A program made the position numbers and the translations under genes. From positions 62,001 to 126,000 of the forward strand of contig JAHBUR010000010.1 in the NCBI GenBank assembly GCA_019637975.1: 64,000 bases of DNA, given 5' to 3'. Positions 47,541 through 55,541 of this stretch are shown piece after piece. Source of the DNA: Bacteroidota bacterium. GTDB taxonomy: Bacteria > Bacteroidota > Ignavibacteria > UBA10030 > UBA6906. The first letter of the stretch is position 1; each line of letters begins with the position of its first letter. The notes beneath the pieces were generated by a model. That model saw nothing but the letters and a program-made list of their open reading frames with translations, ran no database searches and had not been told where the DNA came from.

Positions 47541-49325
47541 TTATTTCAGCAGAATAAGCTTTTTCACATCACCGAACGACCCGGCTGCCATACGGTAGTA
47601 GTATATGCCGCTGGCGAGATTGGCCGCATTCCACGTCACCTCATACGTACCCATCGGCTTCACGTCGTTCACAAGTGTTGCCACTTCACGGCCGAGCATA
47701 TCGTACACTTTGAGTGTCACTTCACTCGTCTGCGGCATGCTGAACTTGATTGTGGTAGACGGGTTAAACGGATTCGGATAATTCTGCTCAAGCGCGAATG
47801 TCCCCGGCAATTCGTTTGTCGGCCGTACATCCGTAATAATGTTCGAGCCATCATAGAACACACCGGTGGGCCCGAGTTGCGAGTAGATCACACCGCCTCC
47901 GAATGCAGCCGCCCCGGTTCTGAAGCCGGCAACGCTTGGCGCAGTGGAAGTGCTGGCGTTGCGATTCTCATTCACAATCTGGCGGGCTGTGAACGGCGGA
48001 TTGAATGCGCTCGTGTAAATGACGGTATCGCGCGACGGCCCCTTCGACACGTAGGCAACTCTGAACGCACTCTGCGCCTCCTGACAGTCAAGGTCCGCAC
48101 GTTGCTGATTGTTGGCTTGAGGCTGGAGAATCTGATCCAACGTCCAGTTTGCAAGCGCCCACGCCCCCGTTGGACTGGTGGCATAGCCTATATTATCAAC
48201 ACCCGCCTGAGTCCGAGTAAACATTACCATCAGCGCGTTGTTTTGCCGGCTCGCCACAAAGCTGGTTCCAAACTCGGGATCCGCTGTGTTTGCAACATTG
48301 ATCTGGCTCCACGTTGAGCCGGTTCCCAAACCCGAGAGCGGAATCCTCTGCATCCGGAGGTTCGGGTTGGTCGCCGTGATATCGTTCGTTAACACCACAC
48401 CGATCGTGTCCGACCTGAAATTGTAGTCGATATCAAGATCGAAATCATTGAACGAGTTACGCGCCGTGTCCAATGCCCACGTCACTCCCCAATTTGTCGA
48501 AAACGACGCGAGTGCCTGGTTGCCGACACCGGTGGTCGAATCCACGTTCTGAAATGCGGCGTACCAGTACGTTAATCCGGCGCTCCACATGTACCCGTCG
48601 GAAACAACTGCGGGATTGATATGTCCCCTTCCTGCAGGGCGAGTAGCAATTCCGGTAGCCCTGAAGCCGGATCCATTCTCAAGACAGGAAAACCAGAACA
48701 ACTGTCCGCCATATCCCGACGCTGCAGTCGTCCGGACAGCAGTAAATCCGAGAACGTGATTGTTCACTGAATCCGTGACAAAAAAATCAAATGAATGCCA
48801 CTTTGTTGTTCCGCCGGGGGAAATATTGAGAAGGCGAGTCCACGAAAGCCCCTGATCAGTCGACCGGAAAACACAGATCGAATCCCTGTTGCTGGCAATG
48901 TATGCAACGTACTTATTTCCCAAACTATCAACGCGAAGCCTGAGGCTCTTGGTGTTTCCGGCTGTAAGCGGGCTCAAGATGTCCGCAGGTGAAATCGGAA
49001 CATCTCCCGGACCCCAATCATTGGATGTCCCGTTCCCGTTTGATAAACCCGGAAGAACAGCATACGGATCGTCAGGAGCGGGAGCAACCCGGGAAAAGGC
49101 ATTTGCATACAGGTGGTTGTATTGTGAGGTGAGGGTTTCGTACAGCGCGAGATTTTCGGCGCGGCGGGCCGCAACAATATCAGCCCAAAGTTGCGCTCGG
49201 GGGGATGTGTCGACAATTTCCACTGCTCCTATGCCTGCTTCACGCGCAATGTCCTCCGGTGTTTGGGCAAGCACGGGAGCGAAAGCAACTAGACAGATGA
49301 GCAAAGCTTTCGCCAATTGTGTCAT
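47541..49325 (-). CDS. Secreted sialidase-fold-like protein with type IX sorting domain
   Basis: 594 residues. A signal peptide (1-20) leads to a helical region (about 22-80). A propeller-like region follows (about 100-490) with Asp-box-like SICVFRSTDQGLSW and SFSTNWGVTW and strands such as NKYVAYIAS. The sorting domain starts FALEQNYPNPFNPSTTIKF and ends KLILLK. The Asp boxes suggest a sialidase-like six-bladed fold. No catalytic Arg triad or Tyr/Glu pair can be assigned by eye. It has its own promoter (49445-49473) and a strong terminator, so it is monocistronic. Confidence 0.85.
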   Translation of the reverse strand: MTQLAKALLICLVAFAPVLAQTPEDIAREAGIGAVEIVDTSPRAQLWADIVAARRAENLALYETLTSQYNHLYANAFSRVAPAPDDPYAVLPGLSNGNGTSNDWGPGDVPISPADILSPLTAGNTKSLRLRVDSLGNKYVAYIASNRDSICVFRSTDQGLSWTRLLNISPGGTTKWHSFDFFVTDSVNNHVLGFTAVRTTAASGYGGQLFWFSCLENGSGFRATGIATRPAGRGHINPAVVSDGYMWSAGLTYWYAAFQNVDSTTGVGNQALASFSTNWGVTWALDTARNSFNDFDLDIDYNFRSDTIGVVLTNDITATNPNLRMQRIPLSGLGTGSTWSQINVANTADPEFGTSFVASRQNNALMVMFTRTQAGVDNIGYATSPTGAWALANWTLDQILQPQANNQQRADLDCQEAQSAFRVAYVSKGPSRDTVIYTSAFNPPFTARQIVNENRNASTSTAPSVAGFRTGAAAFGGGVIYSQLGPTGVFYDGSNIITDVRPTNELPGTFALEQNYPNPFNPSTTIKFSMPQTSEVTLKVYDMLGREVATLVNDVKPMGTYEVTWNAANLASGIYYYRMAAGSFGDVKKLILLK

Positions 49326-49483: not shown

Positions 49484-50881
49484 TCATTTCTGCCTCTCCC
49501 GGTAAAGTACTCCGGCCGTCCACACTGTTGCAGAAATCAACAGCCCCGGGTAGATTGGCTCAATTTCAAACGGATACAGTGCAGAGTTTCCAATTTCCCC
49601 CGTCCATCCAAGGAGCAGCCATGTTACCGAGCCGACCCAGCCGAACAGCATTGACGTAAATGCAAAACCGGACGATATCCTCAACCTTTTAGAATAGCTC
49701 GCCATCAGCGGAATCAACAGACCCGGCACGATAACCGTCCCGATCGTGTACCAAAGCTTGATGACGGAGGGGATCGCAATACTCAACGCTATTGAAAGCG
49801 CGGCGGTAACTATGAGCCCGGCCTTCGTGTAGCGCGCAACGTTCGAGTCATCGCCCTCATTCTTCCACCTCCACACAATATCACGCCCCAATGTCGTTGC
49901 GGAGATGAATGCCAACGTGTTGAGGCTCGACATGATTGTGGCAAGCATCCCGATGTAGAACATCCCCTTCGCAATTGGAGGGAGCGTTACTTCGGCGAGA
50001 AGAGGAAACGCCATAACGGGTTGATCAAGCAGAGGAAGCGCGGCACGGGCGTACAATCCTGCTGTTGCTGTCATCGCATCGAAGATGAACCAAAAGATGA
50101 TAGATATGAGAATACCCCGTTGCGCGACTTCTCCTGACTTTGCAGCATAGCATCGTTGGTGAAATGCCGGATCCACCAGCGTCCACAACGCAATGAAGAA
50201 CCACACCAACACGAACTGAATCGAATTCCCGCCGTTCCATGTCAGATGCAGATGCGGAACATTTCGTTGAATGAAATCGAACCCGCCGAACTTGTCGTAG
50301 GCGAACGGAATGATTACTGCGAAGCCGATGAACATGAGAACAAACTCGAACACATCAGTATTCACATCCGCCCGGAATCCGCCGAAGTACAGATATACCG
50401 TCGTCGAGATTGTGCCGATGAACAAGCAGGTCACGTACCCCCACCCTGTTACCAGTTGCAGCAACATGGCAAGCATCAGCACGTATGGTGCGGGAGTTGT
50501 AAGAATGAATGTGAGAATCGAGCCTAATATCGCCGTCTTGCGGTCGTATGATTGCTGGAGTTTATCGGGGATGGTGAGAAGATTGGACTCACGAATACGC
50601 CTGGCAAGAAACAGCGCAAACAGGAGGGCAAAGATGTAATACGGCACTCCTTGCACAACCCAGTTGGAGATTCCGTAGAGATACGAGAATTCCCCGACGC
50701 CGAGAATGCCACCGTACCATGTTGACACAAGCGTCATCACGAACAGCGGCAGGGTCAACGAACGACCTGCAAGCAGAAAATCGGCCGCTTCGCTTTTTGA
50801 CTTTGAGAGAAATCCGATAAGAAGAACCGCGACAAAGTATGCCGCAATCAGCAGAAGGTCAACCGTGGAAAATGTTACCAT
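49484..50881 (-). CDS. Sodium:solute symporter (SSS family), candidate thiamine transporter
   Basis: 465 residues from the ATG at 50881, which shares one base with the thiN stop (TGATG). About twelve to thirteen helices show the SSS plan, starting DLLLIAAYFVAVLLIGFLSKSK, with the family's AGRSLTLPLFVMTLVSTWYGG segment in TM2 and a TM8-like region LNTLAFISATTLGRDI. It is the third gene of a TPP-riboswitch operon after a TonB receptor and thiN, which makes thiamine or a thiamine precursor the likely substrate, driven by sodium. Comparative work has proposed an SSS-type thiamine transporter (ThiV) in other bacteria; I cannot confirm relatedness to it here. Confidence 0.9.
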   Translation of the reverse strand: MVTFSTVDLLLIAAYFVAVLLIGFLSKSKSEAADFLLAGRSLTLPLFVMTLVSTWYGGILGVGEFSYLYGISNWVVQGVPYYIFALLFALFLARRIRESNLLTIPDKLQQSYDRKTAILGSILTFILTTPAPYVLMLAMLLQLVTGWGYVTCLFIGTISTTVYLYFGGFRADVNTDVFEFVLMFIGFAVIIPFAYDKFGGFDFIQRNVPHLHLTWNGGNSIQFVLVWFFIALWTLVDPAFHQRCYAAKSGEVAQRGILISIIFWFIFDAMTATAGLYARAALPLLDQPVMAFPLLAEVTLPPIAKGMFYIGMLATIMSSLNTLAFISATTLGRDIVWRWKNEGDDSNVARYTKAGLIVTAALSIALSIAIPSVIKLWYTIGTVIVPGLLIPLMASYSKRLRISSGFAFTSMLFGWVGSVTWLLLGWTGEIGNSALYPFEIEPIYPGLLISATVWTAGVLYRERQK

Positions 50882-51546
50882 CAATCCAACATCGTGAGTG
50901 GATTCCGAAGTGAAGGAACGATCATCAGCATCTTCCCTCTCTTTATATCAACAGAGAAGGGAGATTTCACAACGACGTTGCTGACGCCTATCTCCCCCAC
51001 CTTCATCGAGGCATTAAGAAGCCGATAGCGCAAACCGCGCAGCGTAATCCCTGCACATTCACCGAACGGCACAAGGCTGATCGTCGTTCCGATCTTTGCG
51101 CTCAGGCGTTTCTTCTTCTCAAGAGGCATCGCCAACCACGAATCGCCGACCAAGGATATGTCCAGCGAAGATGTGTAGTTCCAGATAATCGAAAGATTGC
51201 CGAGCGTATGATCGAGCCTTTTTCCGGTGGCAGCAACTATTATGGCTTTCCTCACCTTAATTTCAGCCAGAAAATCCAGCGCCTTTTCGAGGTCAGTATT
51301 ATCCTGACGCGGAACGTGCAGGAGTTGTGCTGCGGGGAAGTATCGCACGGTTTGTCTCGTGACAGAATCAAGATCACCGATGATGACATCGGGCCGGATG
51401 CCGAGCGAACGGGCAACATTTGCCCCGCCATCAGCAGCAACGATGACGTTCGAGCGACGGGCAAGCTCGTGTACGAGTTTGCGTCCCGGCGGTTCACCGT
51501 TACAGATGACGAGCGCTCTCCGGAATCGTGATGAGGATTGCTTCAT
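50881..51546 (-). CDS. thiN: Thiamine pyrophosphokinase
   Basis: 221 residues. Motifs of the bacterial thiamine pyrophosphokinase family are all present: VAADGGANVARSLG, VIIGDLDSV, QDNTDLEKALDF, AATGKRLDHTLGNLS and, in the C-terminal beta domain, GVSNVVVKSPFSVDI. It transfers pyrophosphate from ATP to thiamine, giving thiamine diphosphate in one step, so the organism can use imported thiamine. Its ATG overlaps the TonB receptor stop by 4 bp and its stop overlaps the symporter start, so the three are translationally coupled under the riboswitch. Confidence 0.95.
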   Translation of the reverse strand: MKQSSSRFRRALVICNGEPPGRKLVHELARRSNVIVAADGGANVARSLGIRPDVIIGDLDSVTRQTVRYFPAAQLLHVPRQDNTDLEKALDFLAEIKVRKAIIVAATGKRLDHTLGNLSIIWNYTSSLDISLVGDSWLAMPLEKKKRLSAKIGTTISLVPFGECAGITLRGLRYRLLNASMKVGEIGVSNVVVKSPFSVDIKRGKMLMIVPSLRNPLTMLD

Positions 51547-53975
51547 AAGTTGATTGCCATGCTGAAGAAGATGTTCCTTTCCGCGCCGACAAAGAAATCC
51601 TTTCCCTCGCCGTACGTTGCGTAAAAACTATCGAAGATATTGTTGACATGCAGCTTCAGTTCAACTCCGATATCGCTCAGCACATTTTTCATAGAATAGC
51701 TTACCAGCGCATCACTGACAAAATACGGATCGACGGTGTTTTGTTCATCCCTGAAGTTATCCGTGTACTGCTTACCGACGTACCGGCCTGCAAGTGACAG
51801 CAAAAGGTTTTCGTACCTGTACGTGAGCCGGAGATTTCCCAACACATCGGGGAAGCCTGCAATGGGATTCCCTTTCAGATTGAGAGGAGGGCTGGTCGAA
51901 TAGTCCGTGTGCCGGACAAACCTGTTGCGGCTGAATGTTGCATTGCCGCTCACTTCAAGTCCGTCGATCAGGCTTGCCCGAAGGCTCAGTTCAATTCCGA
52001 TATGCCTTGTGCGATCGGCATTTCCGGTGATCGGCTGGCCGAAACGATCCACCTGACCGCTTTTTACGATCTCATCTGAAAATTCCATCCAGAAAACATT
52101 TGCCATAACCTTCACCGTTTCATCGGAGAATCCTCCACCCAACTCGACATTCAACAAGCGTTCGGGTTTCACAAGCGGCGAGCCGAAATCAAATCCGCCG
52201 GCGGCTTCCGGCGCAAACTGCGGAACAATGGCTCCCCACGATTCGGGGGTGCTTGATTCTGCCGCATCGTACAGGTTCTTCAACCGCGGCTCCCGCGATG
52301 TGTATGCAACACTGATGTAGCTATTCCAATTCTCGTCGAAGTTATGGTTGAGTCCTGCACGGGGATTTATGAAATGATACGGAACTGAAAAATTCGTGCC
52401 GACATATTTCTCATCATACAATCTGTACCGATTGTACGCATACTGCACGCTGATCATTCCGGTCCAGTCGGGTCGGAAACGATACAACTCTTGCGCGTAC
52501 AGAGAAAAAATGTCCTTTCCCCCTTTGTAATCGTAGTAACGGTAATTTTGAGGAAGTGAAACAGGAAGCAGATCGGCACGTTTCAAATTCCCCCAATGAT
52601 CGGACCGGTGAATGCGAAGCTCCGAGCCGATCACCAGTTCGCCGTTATCATGTTTTAGTGTCACACGCGGCAACCAACCCCATTGTTTGTTGCTGACGAC
52701 GGCGTGGATAAGCGCCCTCGACATATACAGCGTGTCGGGATCGCCCGTTATGTCGAAGCCGTTTTGTCGCGTAATGCGAAAATACGAATACGGGGCCCAC
52801 GATCCGTCATAGTCGAAGAAGCCATCGCCTGTGACGAGAAACAGAGTATTGTTGAGTGTAAGATTGTCGGACAACCGCCATTCGTGGAACAATTCGTAAT
52901 GCGGTTGGGAGAAATTCTCGATCTCATCGTCGCCTTGAATCGGATTGGCGCGGCGCTTCTCACGATTCTTCACGTCCTCTTTCGGGATGCCGTAATACGC
53001 GAGATGGTCGGAAACCGGCCCTCCGTAAAAATTCACCTGCGTCGTCATTTCTTCATCATAACGAATCAGGCCAAGGAAGTAGCTGTTGAAATCCACCCAC
53101 GAACGTTCGCGATAGCCGCTACTCAAGATTTTCGAGAGACGGCCATGAATGGCGTATTGGTTGTCGATAAGTCCCGAATTGAACGATGCTGAGTAGCGGC
53201 GTGTATTGTAACTCCCGACGCCGCCGGAGAACTGAAAAAGCCGCTCGCGTCCGAAGTTATTCGTGACGAGATTCACCGAGCCGCCGATAGCAGGAGAGCC
53301 GTAGAATGCGCTGCCCGCTCCGCGTTGAACCTGAATATCCTCGACGCTCGCAGCAATGTCCGGCATATCGAGCCAGTACACATTATGATCTTCGGGATCG
53401 TTTTGGGGAATGCCGTTTACCATCACGGCAATACGCCGCGCATCGAAGCCGCGAATGTTCAGATATGTATAGCCGATACCGTTGCCCGCTTCAGAATAGA
53501 ATGTTGTGGAGGGAAGTTCGGAAAGAAGGACAGGAATATCCTGCGTTGAATACCGTTCGCGGATCTGTTCCCGTTCGAGAGTTGAGAATGTTGCAGGCGT
53601 TTCCCGTTCCCTTCCGCGTGTAGCGGAAACGACTATCGGTTGGCCGACAATCTCCGATGGAGAAAGTGAGAATGTAAGGGACGCAACACCGCCGCCAACC
53701 ACGACAACTTCCTTTCTCAGCGCAGAATACCCGACAAATGATGCACGCAATTGATATGTCCCGGCTTTCACATTCCCAATTGTGAATTCACCGTCGGCAT
53801 CAGTTGTCGAGCCGAGAGAGGTTCCCCTGATCGTGATGTTGGCCCCGAGCAACGGATTCATCGTCGATGCGTCAACAACTTTCCCCTTGATTGTGCCCGT
53901 CTCCTCTGCAAACGAAAAAGCGTAGAGGAGAAATGAACACAGCACAATCTGCAAAGTGGTTTTCGTTCGTCTCAT
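51543..53975 (-). CDS. TonB-dependent outer-membrane receptor, probable thiamine receptor
   Basis: 810 residues from an ATG at 53975 preceded by AAAGGA; an extended start at 54023 has no ribosome site. Signal peptide 1-22. A carboxypeptidase-regulatory-like beta-sandwich follows (about 25-110, GTIKGKVVDASTMNPLLGANITIRG). The plug domain at about 125-230 includes YTYLNIRGFDARRIAVMVNG and QRGAGSAFYGSPAIGG. A 22-strand barrel continues to the end (FFSMAINL). It imports a scarce ligand across the outer membrane using TonB energy. The TPP riboswitch, thiN and the symporter identify the ligand as thiamine or a derivative; this is inference from context. Confidence 0.93.
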   Translation of the reverse strand: MRRTKTTLQIVLCSFLLYAFSFAEETGTIKGKVVDASTMNPLLGANITIRGTSLGSTTDADGEFTIGNVKAGTYQLRASFVGYSALRKEVVVVGGGVASLTFSLSPSEIVGQPIVVSATRGRERETPATFSTLEREQIRERYSTQDIPVLLSELPSTTFYSEAGNGIGYTYLNIRGFDARRIAVMVNGIPQNDPEDHNVYWLDMPDIAASVEDIQVQRGAGSAFYGSPAIGGSVNLVTNNFGRERLFQFSGGVGSYNTRRYSASFNSGLIDNQYAIHGRLSKILSSGYRERSWVDFNSYFLGLIRYDEEMTTQVNFYGGPVSDHLAYYGIPKEDVKNREKRRANPIQGDDEIENFSQPHYELFHEWRLSDNLTLNNTLFLVTGDGFFDYDGSWAPYSYFRITRQNGFDITGDPDTLYMSRALIHAVVSNKQWGWLPRVTLKHDNGELVIGSELRIHRSDHWGNLKRADLLPVSLPQNYRYYDYKGGKDIFSLYAQELYRFRPDWTGMISVQYAYNRYRLYDEKYVGTNFSVPYHFINPRAGLNHNFDENWNSYISVAYTSREPRLKNLYDAAESSTPESWGAIVPQFAPEAAGGFDFGSPLVKPERLLNVELGGGFSDETVKVMANVFWMEFSDEIVKSGQVDRFGQPITGNADRTRHIGIELSLRASLIDGLEVSGNATFSRNRFVRHTDYSTSPPLNLKGNPIAGFPDVLGNLRLTYRYENLLLSLAGRYVGKQYTDNFRDEQNTVDPYFVSDALVSYSMKNVLSDIGVELKLHVNNIFDSFYATYGEGKDFFVGAERNIFFSMAINL

Positions 53976-54063
53976 AATTCCTTTCTCCAAAAACAAATGC
54001 CGTTTCCCGTTGCGAACCTGCAAAAGGAAACGGCAGAAAAAGAAATCAAGAACGAACTTGGTT

Positions 54064-54156
54064 CCGTTTCCCTACGCCGGTATTGTCCGGATCAGGTTCT
54101 TAGGGTTTTATCTCAGCCCCGTCCCGACGAAGTCGGGATCGGTACACCCCTAACGG
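54064..54156 (-). promoter_or_regulatory. TPP (THI-box) riboswitch
   Basis: Read on the minus strand. P1 pairs CCGTT (54152-54156) with AACGG (54064-54068). The conserved blocks are TTAGGGGTG on the 5' side, then a variable stem CCCGACTTCGTCGGG (P3 extension), the GGGGCTGAGA pyrimidine-sensing block, ACCCTAAGAACCTGATCC, and CCGGACAATACCGGCGTAGGG. These match the thi-box consensus almost exactly. It begins a few bases after the predicted start site and ends 88 nt before the TonB receptor ATG. Bound thiamine diphosphate should lower expression of the receptor, thiN and symporter. The switching mechanism (termination or translation) is not evident. Confidence 0.96.
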
Positions 54157-54168
54157 TTTTCTGTTATG

Positions 54169-54197
54169 AATATACACCATTCGCACCGCGAATTCAA
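54169..54197 (-). promoter_or_regulatory. Sigma-70-type promoter of the thiamine operon
   Basis: TTGAAT (54192-54197), exactly 17 bp, TATATT (54169-54174) on the minus strand. Initiation near 54162 would place the riboswitch at the very 5' end of the transcript, which supports both calls. Confidence 0.7.
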
Positions 54198-54215
54198 CTT
54201 CACAGGGTACAACTC

Positions 54216-54244
54216 TTGACTCTTGGCGCGGAGCTTCTTAAGTT
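54216..54244 (+). promoter_or_regulatory. Candidate promoter of the PEGA gene
   Basis: TTGACT (54216-54221), 17 bp, TAAGTT (54239-54244). The -35 box is good, the -10 weak. Leader about 125 nt. Confidence 0.32.
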
Positions 54245-54374
54245 GATTCCAGCATATCGTGGCTCGGGCCGAACCCCCTTTTCGATGCCACGCCTTTCTG
54301 TACGAGTTCTTTACGTAGCCGCATCTCCAATAAATCCCGGATGCATTTCCCTCTTACCAGAAATGAGGAGCCCT

Positions 54375-55541
54375 ATGAACTCTTTCTCTGTTCTCTTTCT
54401 CATCTTACTTATCGCAATGCACGCAAGGGCTGAGTCCCCTTTTGCAGCGCCGGATGATACAACACGCGGATACTGCAGCCTGAGCATCACGTCTTCTCCG
54501 CCGGGAGCAGAGGTGTTGCTCAATGGGAAGATTTTCGGTGTTACCCCGATCGTGTGCGGCGATCTGCCGCTTGGCAAGCACATATTGCGTTTGCGGCTCG
54601 AGGGCTTTCTGGATCATACCGACACGTTGACGTTTGATTCGGCTAAAGTGTTCGTCAGAGATATCCAGCTCATTGAGCCCGGAACGTTGACAATTACTTC
54701 CGACCCTCCGGAGGCGGATGTGATTATTGACGGCTCGAACATCGGAAAGACGCCGATTGCCGGACTTCGCATGAAGCCGGGAATCATCTTGCTTCGCGTG
54801 ACAAAAGTGCATCATACCCCGTTCGAGCAGAGTGTTGTGATCCAGCAGGACAAGGAAGCAAATATTGCCGTTCAGCTTCTGCGAAGGCAAGGTTCGTTGA
54901 CGGTTCACGTCACGCCTTCAAACGCCGACGTGTTTGTTGACGGAAAGAATATCGGGAAAGGTTCGATCGAAAATTATGAACTTGAAGCCGGCAGGTACTT
55001 GATCTCTGTTGAGGAAGGCGGCCACAAGCTGCAGCACAACATCTTCGTTCCTCCCGGTTCGAGAGTGGAAGTACAGGCAACGGTCAACCAGTATTCTCTC
55101 GCGGCCTTCCGGACATCGCTTCTGGCCCCGGGCTTGGGACAGTTCATGGACGGAGCGGCTGCAAAGGGAATCGCTATGATGGGAGCCTTCGCTGGAAGCA
55201 CATCATTTCTGATTGCTTCACTCAGCGACTACTCGACAAAGCAAGAGAACTACACACTTCTCCGGCAGGCATACCGTTCGGCAAACACGGAGGCGGATGC
55301 ACTCGCCGCCGGAACCAAGGCGCTGGCGGCTCATCAGGATATGGAATCGAGTTTCAAGAAGCGGAGAACGGCCATCGTGCTTATCGGCGTGGTGTATGCA
55401 GCAATAGTTCTCGATGCGTATCTGCATCACACGCGCGTCGGGAGTTTCGAGGCTGTGCCTCAGAAACTCTTCTCATCTCTGCACCCTGTCCTTTCCGCCG
55501 ATGGGCATTCGATGTCGGTCGGCATTCAATTGAACTTCTGA
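54375..55541 (+). CDS. Triple-PEGA-domain membrane protein
   Basis: 388 residues from the ATG at 54375, with GAGGAG just upstream. Longer frames run through the riboswitch region and are rejected. Signal peptide 1-19. Three PEGA repeats follow at about 35-90, 95-155 and 165-225 (SSPPGAEVLLNGKIFGVTP, SDPPEADVIIDGSNIGKTP, VTPSNADVFVDGKNIGKGS). A region with two hydrophobic helices ends the protein (APGLGQFMDGAAAKGIAMMG and RTAIVLIGVVYAAIVLDAYL) around a helical linker rich in Ala/Glu, like DUF5683. PEGA domains are thought to bind surface polymers. It lies 15 bp before the first WD40 lipoprotein, so the three genes form one unit. Confidence 0.88.
   Translation: MNSFSVLFLILLIAMHARAESPFAAPDDTTRGYCSLSITSSPPGAEVLLNGKIFGVTPIVCGDLPLGKHILRLRLEGFLDHTDTLTFDSAKVFVRDIQLIEPGTLTITSDPPEADVIIDGSNIGKTPIAGLRMKPGIILLRVTKVHHTPFEQSVVIQQDKEANIAVQLLRRQGSLTVHVTPSNADVFVDGKNIGKGSIENYELEAGRYLISVEEGGHKLQHNIFVPPGSRVEVQATVNQYSLAAFRTSLLAPGLGQFMDGAAAKGIAMMGAFAGSTSFLIASLSDYSTKQENYTLLRQAYRSANTEADALAAGTKALAAHQDMESSFKKRRTAIVLIGVVYAAIVLDAYLHHTRVGSFEAVPQKLFSSLHPVLSADGHSMSVGIQLNF

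Follow-up and report, generated by a model that had tools for sequence, protein, structure and literature searches.

A TPP-riboswitch operon of a thiamine-auxotrophic Bacteroidota bacterium in which an SSS-family symporter is the predicted inner-membrane thiamine importer

What does a sodium-solute symporter (SSS) carry when its gene stands in one operon with genes of vitamin B1 supply? The question is posed by a locus on the minus strand of the 64,000-nucleotide stretch of Ignavibacteria DNA analysed here (the window), where a TPP riboswitch, a conserved terminator/anti-terminator, a TonB-dependent receptor, a thiamine pyrophosphokinase (TPK, thiN/tnr3) and an SSS-family symporter follow one another in that order. 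The locus is best read as a TPP-repressed thiamine importer of the ThiV type. We hold it highly probable that the operon serves a thiamine auxotroph in acquiring thiamine (vitamin B1), with the SSS protein as the inner-membrane step.

The three genes are tightly packed. The OMthi-like outer-membrane receptor (51543..53975, minus strand, 810 aa) contains CarboxypepD_reg, Plug and TonB barrel domains by profile search (PF13715, PF07715 and PF00593). Its longest mechanically called reading frame opens at TTG 54023, which sits in the terminator hairpin, while ATG 53975 has the Shine-Dalgarno sequence GGAGAAAGG upstream and opens a signal peptide, and is therefore the sensible start. The receptor gene overlaps the TPK gene (50881..51546, minus strand, 221 aa) by 4 bp (ATGA); the TPK scores 160 bits against TIGR01378, about twice the cut-off of 76.4, and has both TPK domains (PF04263 and PF04265). 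A 1-bp overlap, the A of TGATG, then joins TPK to the predicted inner-membrane thiamine importer (49484..50881, minus strand), which is 465 aa long from ATG 50881 or 466 aa from TTG 50884; start positions in orthologues back the ATG. The initial annotation had described a promoter, riboswitch, receptor, thiN and symporter coupled by these overlaps, and the parts and overlaps stand. The promoter is less secure: the sigma-70-like hexamers TTGAAT-17-TATATT (54169..54197, minus strand), found by consensus scan, are well placed, ending 8 bases 5′ of the aptamer, but a region scan gave 5 such sites against 5.0 expected by chance, and we have therefore left them out of the evidence.

In 20 of 21 genomes of the family the riboswitch and the symporter are found again, with the receptor after the riboswitch, and the order is the same at every locus that lies uninterrupted on its contig. 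This gene order is far beyond chance. Two neighbouring genes were considered separately. At 47541-49325 (minus strand), 158 bp downstream, lies a gene whose product is a secreted protein carrying a C-terminal sorting domain for type IX secretion; of the family loci that were read, only that of one close relative (G002) has it in this place, and it was rejected as a fourth gene of the operon. On the plus strand, the longest reading frame of a divergent PEGA/DUF5683 protein (53997-55541) covers the riboswitch; its true start is probably at about 54363-54375, where a signal peptide begins.

The aptamer matches the full RF00059 model (positions 1-105) at 54161-54052 on the minus strand, scoring 70.5 bits (Rfam, gathering score 54.3, E = 7.5e-12 for the window), and it is the one TPP riboswitch in the entire 4.25-Mb genome (98.65% complete). 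Its P1 stem pairs CCGTT (54156-54152) with AACGG (54068-54064). In the expression platform (53989..54072, minus strand), delineated by RNA folding and by the leaders of relatives, two hairpins compete. In the anti-terminator, GGAAACGG (54071-54064), which holds the P1 3′ strand, pairs with CCGTTTCC (54033-54026); the latter doubles as the 5′ arm of the terminator hairpin, in which TGCCGTTTCC (54035-54026) pairs with GGAAACGGCA (54007-53998), followed by TTTGTTTTT (53997-53989). The folding energies are -24.2 kcal/mol for the terminator region and -22.4 kcal/mol for the anti-terminator region. The leaders of relatives have a hairpin and a T run at the equivalent place, most with the hairpin 5′ arm GCCGTTT(C/T) and several family members with a CCCGC/GCGGG stem. 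When exact matches are counted, the complement does better than shuffled sequences in some leaders only, and the switch pairing is accordingly read off the sequences, not established statistically.

Read in this way, the leader would be an ordinary off-switch. When TPP is scarce, the P1 3′ strand would pair with the terminator 5′ arm and transcription would read through; ample TPP would close P1, free the terminator and stop the operon, and we expect TPP to regulate the operon in the cell accordingly. In a fold of the full leader the terminator hairpin is extended and takes in the Shine-Dalgarno sequence too, which makes an additional control of translation possible. Once expressed, the TonB-dependent receptor would take thiamine through the outer membrane and the SSS protein, probably with Na+, through the inner one; the pyrophosphokinase would convert the vitamin to TPP.

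The gene content of the genome narrows down what has to enter the cell. Family searches found no ThiE/TenI, no ThiC, no PnuC/PnuT (no PF04973 match) and no ThiT in the genome, and named control genomes were positive in each search. A PnuT or ThiT gene under another TPP riboswitch, which the initial annotation had singled out as evidence against its reading, is likewise absent, together with any second TPP riboswitch. Since ThiE is absent, HMP and thiazole cannot be joined into thiamine; with all four gene types missing, HMP is unusable and thiamine itself must enter. Among the gene types searched, the importer and the pyrophosphokinase are the sole visible route to TPP. The host is thus a thiamine auxotroph, as is nearly the whole order: in a sample of 86 genomes of the order, each at least 80% complete, ThiE above the cut-off is missing from 83.

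These absences bear directly on the idea that the SSS protein imports the thiamine precursor HMP and not thiamine, as is thought for SAR11 ThiV. SAR11 ThiV (SAR11_0811), an SSS protein controlled by a TPP riboswitch, is tied to HMP uptake; SAR11 cells import HMP and are unable to use thiamine, and in the part of the source available neither a receptor nor a TPK is described beside ThiV (PMC11452348). Two genomes of the order also keep thiE near the SSS operon. In G022 a single run (L109, G022:C9, 536-7496) holds the riboswitch, thiM, thiE, thiL, receptor, TPK and SSS, without ThiC, and in G021 thiM-thiE-thiL lie ahead of the operon in the same way, by position only. We regard the run in G022 (and, by position, that in G021) as a salvage plus uptake operon, and precursor could therefore also be carried there. 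For the genome under study, an HMP importer is rejected on the absence of ThiE. The partner enzyme, TPK, acts on thiamine, and the protein that replaces the SSS in relatives, PnuT, has been shown to carry thiamine in Bacteroides (PMC5613172). An HMP importer is accordingly an improbable account of the locus.

Still less credence is due to import of TMP or TPP, or to a role as exporter, and we regard either as very improbable. The genomic context does not tell thiamine from its phosphates or close analogues, and secondary vitamin carriers have been considered as possible exporters (PMC6593275). Yet the TPK encoded in the same operon needs unphosphorylated thiamine, a TPP-repressed exporter would make no sense in an auxotroph, and the receptor is an uptake protein. 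Thiamine itself is very likely the substrate of the symporter.

The best support for the SSS doing the job of PnuT is that the inner-membrane protein is exchanged while riboswitch, receptor and kinase stay. Across the 86 genomes of the order, an SSS orthologue (E ≤ 1e-40) is found in 69, a TPP riboswitch in 79 and a PnuC/PnuT-family protein in 15. SSS alone occurs in 67 genomes, a Pnu protein alone in 13, both in two and neither in four, an exclusion with a Fisher p of 2.6e-10, uncorrected for relatedness. In all 13 Pnu-only genomes PnuT follows TPK, in the SSS slot. The riboswitch shares a contig with PnuT in 11 of these, and in the remaining two (G077 and G088) contig ends split the operon. 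Well-supported branches in the receptor tree and in the TPK tree force at least two SSS/PnuT changes in each. The claim of the initial annotation that the SSS is a strong candidate for a thiamine transporter is thereby supported: relatives without the SSS have PnuT at this position of the operon. No earlier report of the exchange was found in a search covering part of the literature.

The genomes outside this pattern are few. G001 and G018 have the SSS operon plus a PnuC-type gene elsewhere, with no TPK beside that gene; these lone PnuC-like genes (L066 in G001, L065 in G018) are possibly nicotinamide riboside transporters. Of the four genomes with neither protein, G058 has a riboswitch that heads thiM-thiE-thiL-thiC-thiD (L096, G058:C75, 2985-8349), which includes the only ThiC among the 86 genomes. 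In G009, G054 and G083 the riboswitch is missing as well and the whole locus is gone, perhaps because of gaps in the assemblies; with G009 at 97% completeness, a real loss of the locus is possible there.

We then asked what the protein itself says of its substrate. It belongs to the SSS (SLC5, TC 2.A.21) family by PF00474 (115 bits against a cut-off of 22.8, E = 4.7e-33), and its structure model (pLDDT 83, pTM 0.86) has a LeuT-type fold. Among the NCBIfam equivalogs, panF (TIGR02119) is the best match, though at 104.6 bits it is far under its cut-off of 328; putP (TIGR02121) scores 65.4 bits against 515.5, and no amino-acid, sugar or pantothenate equivalog reaches its cut-off. The nearest solved fold is that of the high-affinity Na+/choline symporter CHT1 (Z = 40.6 over 452 residues, 17% identity), with sugar and sialic-acid symporters behind the choline transporters at a best Z of about 33, and a profile search also ranks choline transporters first (CHT1, E = 6e-26; sfCHT, E = 5e-19). 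These matches, the PanF score and the CHT1 fold, are what favours another solute, such as choline or pantothenate, carried by a symporter that is merely co-transcribed with thiamine genes.

Thiamine, like choline, is an organic cation. The published choline site of CHT1 is an aromatic cage of W62, Y91, W141 and W254 (PMC11589582). In the profile alignment only the first two have aromatic counterparts, W56 (W/F among homologues) and the invariant Y82, while W141 aligns to T130 and W254 to D238; with the cage half kept, the protein is not a choline transporter by this test. The protein may plausibly still have a site for a cation. An invariant E65 aligns to CHT1 E73, and the Na2-site hydroxyls are kept (in 14 homologues S319 is invariant and position 320 is S or T; the two align to S346/S347 of CHT1 in TM8), while the CHT1 Na3-site Asp is mostly Asn or His in the SSS homologues. 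E65, Y82, Y134, D238 and F241 are all invariant or almost so and may be close to the pocket. Coupling to Na+ is likely. CHT1 (SLC5A7) and the bacterial sfCHT resemble the window protein in an organic-cation substrate, predicted for the latter, and in the aligned TWxGG/E motif and Na2 serines, but differ from it in sequence (17-18% identity), in W141 and W254, which are not kept, and in context, which is here thiamine and not choline. HMP/thiamine symporters are said to be marked by Tyr at SiaT position 78, Asp at 139 and Phe at 254 (PMC11452348). The invariant Y82/Y83, and F241 followed by H/Y242, may correspond to parts of this signature; SiaT itself gave only a weak match to the window protein.

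We next placed the protein in its wider family. The comparison with PanF that the initial annotation had proposed sets the whole group apart from E. coli PanF and PutP, the only outgroups, by a very long branch, and the placement is unsure owing to such long branches. The bit score of the protein and the tree both speak against a PanF role, which was rejected. The sugar or amino-acid SSS clade that had been raised as a possible home for the protein finds no backing either, with no such equivalog reached and E. coli PutP on a very long branch. A plasmid search with the SSS protein returned only distant members, below 30% identity, among the matches listed.

Across the phylum, a relative at E ≤ 1e-60 is found in 85 of 296 sampled genomes. 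We compared 40 loci from outside the order, with riboswitches called by Rfam at most of them. TPK adjoins SSS in 33. Riboswitch, receptor, TPK and SSS are all present in 17 loci, counting L186, where the riboswitch was recognised by pattern only, and L196, where the receptor is placed after the SSS. In 16 further loci TPK lies directly 5′ of SSS, and neither a receptor match nor a clear riboswitch is seen, part of these loci having been run through Rfam. The remaining seven (L161, L166, L169, L170, L173, L176 and L179) have an SSS with no thiamine gene alongside. They form one more divergent subclade in the tree, and their neighbours are housekeeping genes, for example ftsY-like, rnhB-like and phosphatidyltransferase-like reading frames (named by eye). 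The substrate of this subclade may be the same or different, and the family name alone therefore does not fix the substrate.

These seven divergent relatives add to the case for another solute. Against it stand the adjacency of TPK and SSS across the phylum, riboswitch or not, the way in which SSS and PnuT almost entirely exclude each other from the one slot, and the fact that, with the SSS removed, no inner-membrane thiamine step is left among the types tested. We therefore consider a merely co-transcribed carrier of another solute unlikely, and retain thiamine import as the role of the symporter. A bolder proposition is that dedicated Na+/thiamine symporters form a clade across the phylum, defined by the window protein, with a fold like that of choline transporters and separate from both ThiV and PanF, and that this clade has been swapped with the PnuT facilitator at least twice in an otherwise unchanged operon; on this we find the arguments for and against evenly balanced.

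Comparison with known systems shows which features are shared and which are not. By its published description, Cabys_3975-3977 of Caldithrix abyssi, a thiamine auxotroph of a different phylum, has the same set of parts, a TPP riboswitch, TonB-dependent receptor, sodium-solute symporter and TPK, and its authors considered the receptor probably involved in thiamine transport (PMC5317091). The arrangement is thus already published and is not novel as such. In the OMthi-PnuT-tnr3 operon of Bacteroides, PnuT carries thiamine over the inner membrane; this form, with riboswitch, receptor and TPK in common with ours, is usual in gut Bacteroidetes (PMC5613172), in line with the receptor, PnuT and pyrophosphokinase that the initial annotation had given as the usual Bacteroidota set. 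It has PnuT (PnuC family) where our operon has SSS, and B. thetaiotaomicron also makes thiamine.

ThiV, a long-standing proposal, is described as an SSS protein under TPP riboswitches, homologous to PanF (PMC2211319, PMC6593275). Going by that description, the window protein shares with it the SSS family, TPP riboswitch control and a proposed B1-related transport, and an SSS gene under a TPP riboswitch is, by position, what is found here. The Candida protein Dur31 is a thiamine transporter with an SSF domain, as in the window protein; the pyrithiamine resistance of its deletion strains backs this role genetically, and it is under a TPP riboswitch in many yeasts, but it belongs to a eukaryotic DUR3-like branch and the riboswitch works through splicing (PMC5997356).

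What is new here is that PnuT and SSS replace each other within one operon slot, that thiamine auxotrophy runs through nearly the whole order, and how far the clade extends. Together these findings provide strong genomic evidence on what a large, uncharacterised group of sodium symporters carries; automatic annotation would label its members generic or pantothenate symporters. The natural pairs of operons, with the same receptor and kinase and either PnuT or SSS, allow facilitated and ion-driven thiamine uptake to be compared. For the organisms themselves, the finding accounts for the supply of vitamin B1 in nearly a whole order of thiamine auxotrophs.
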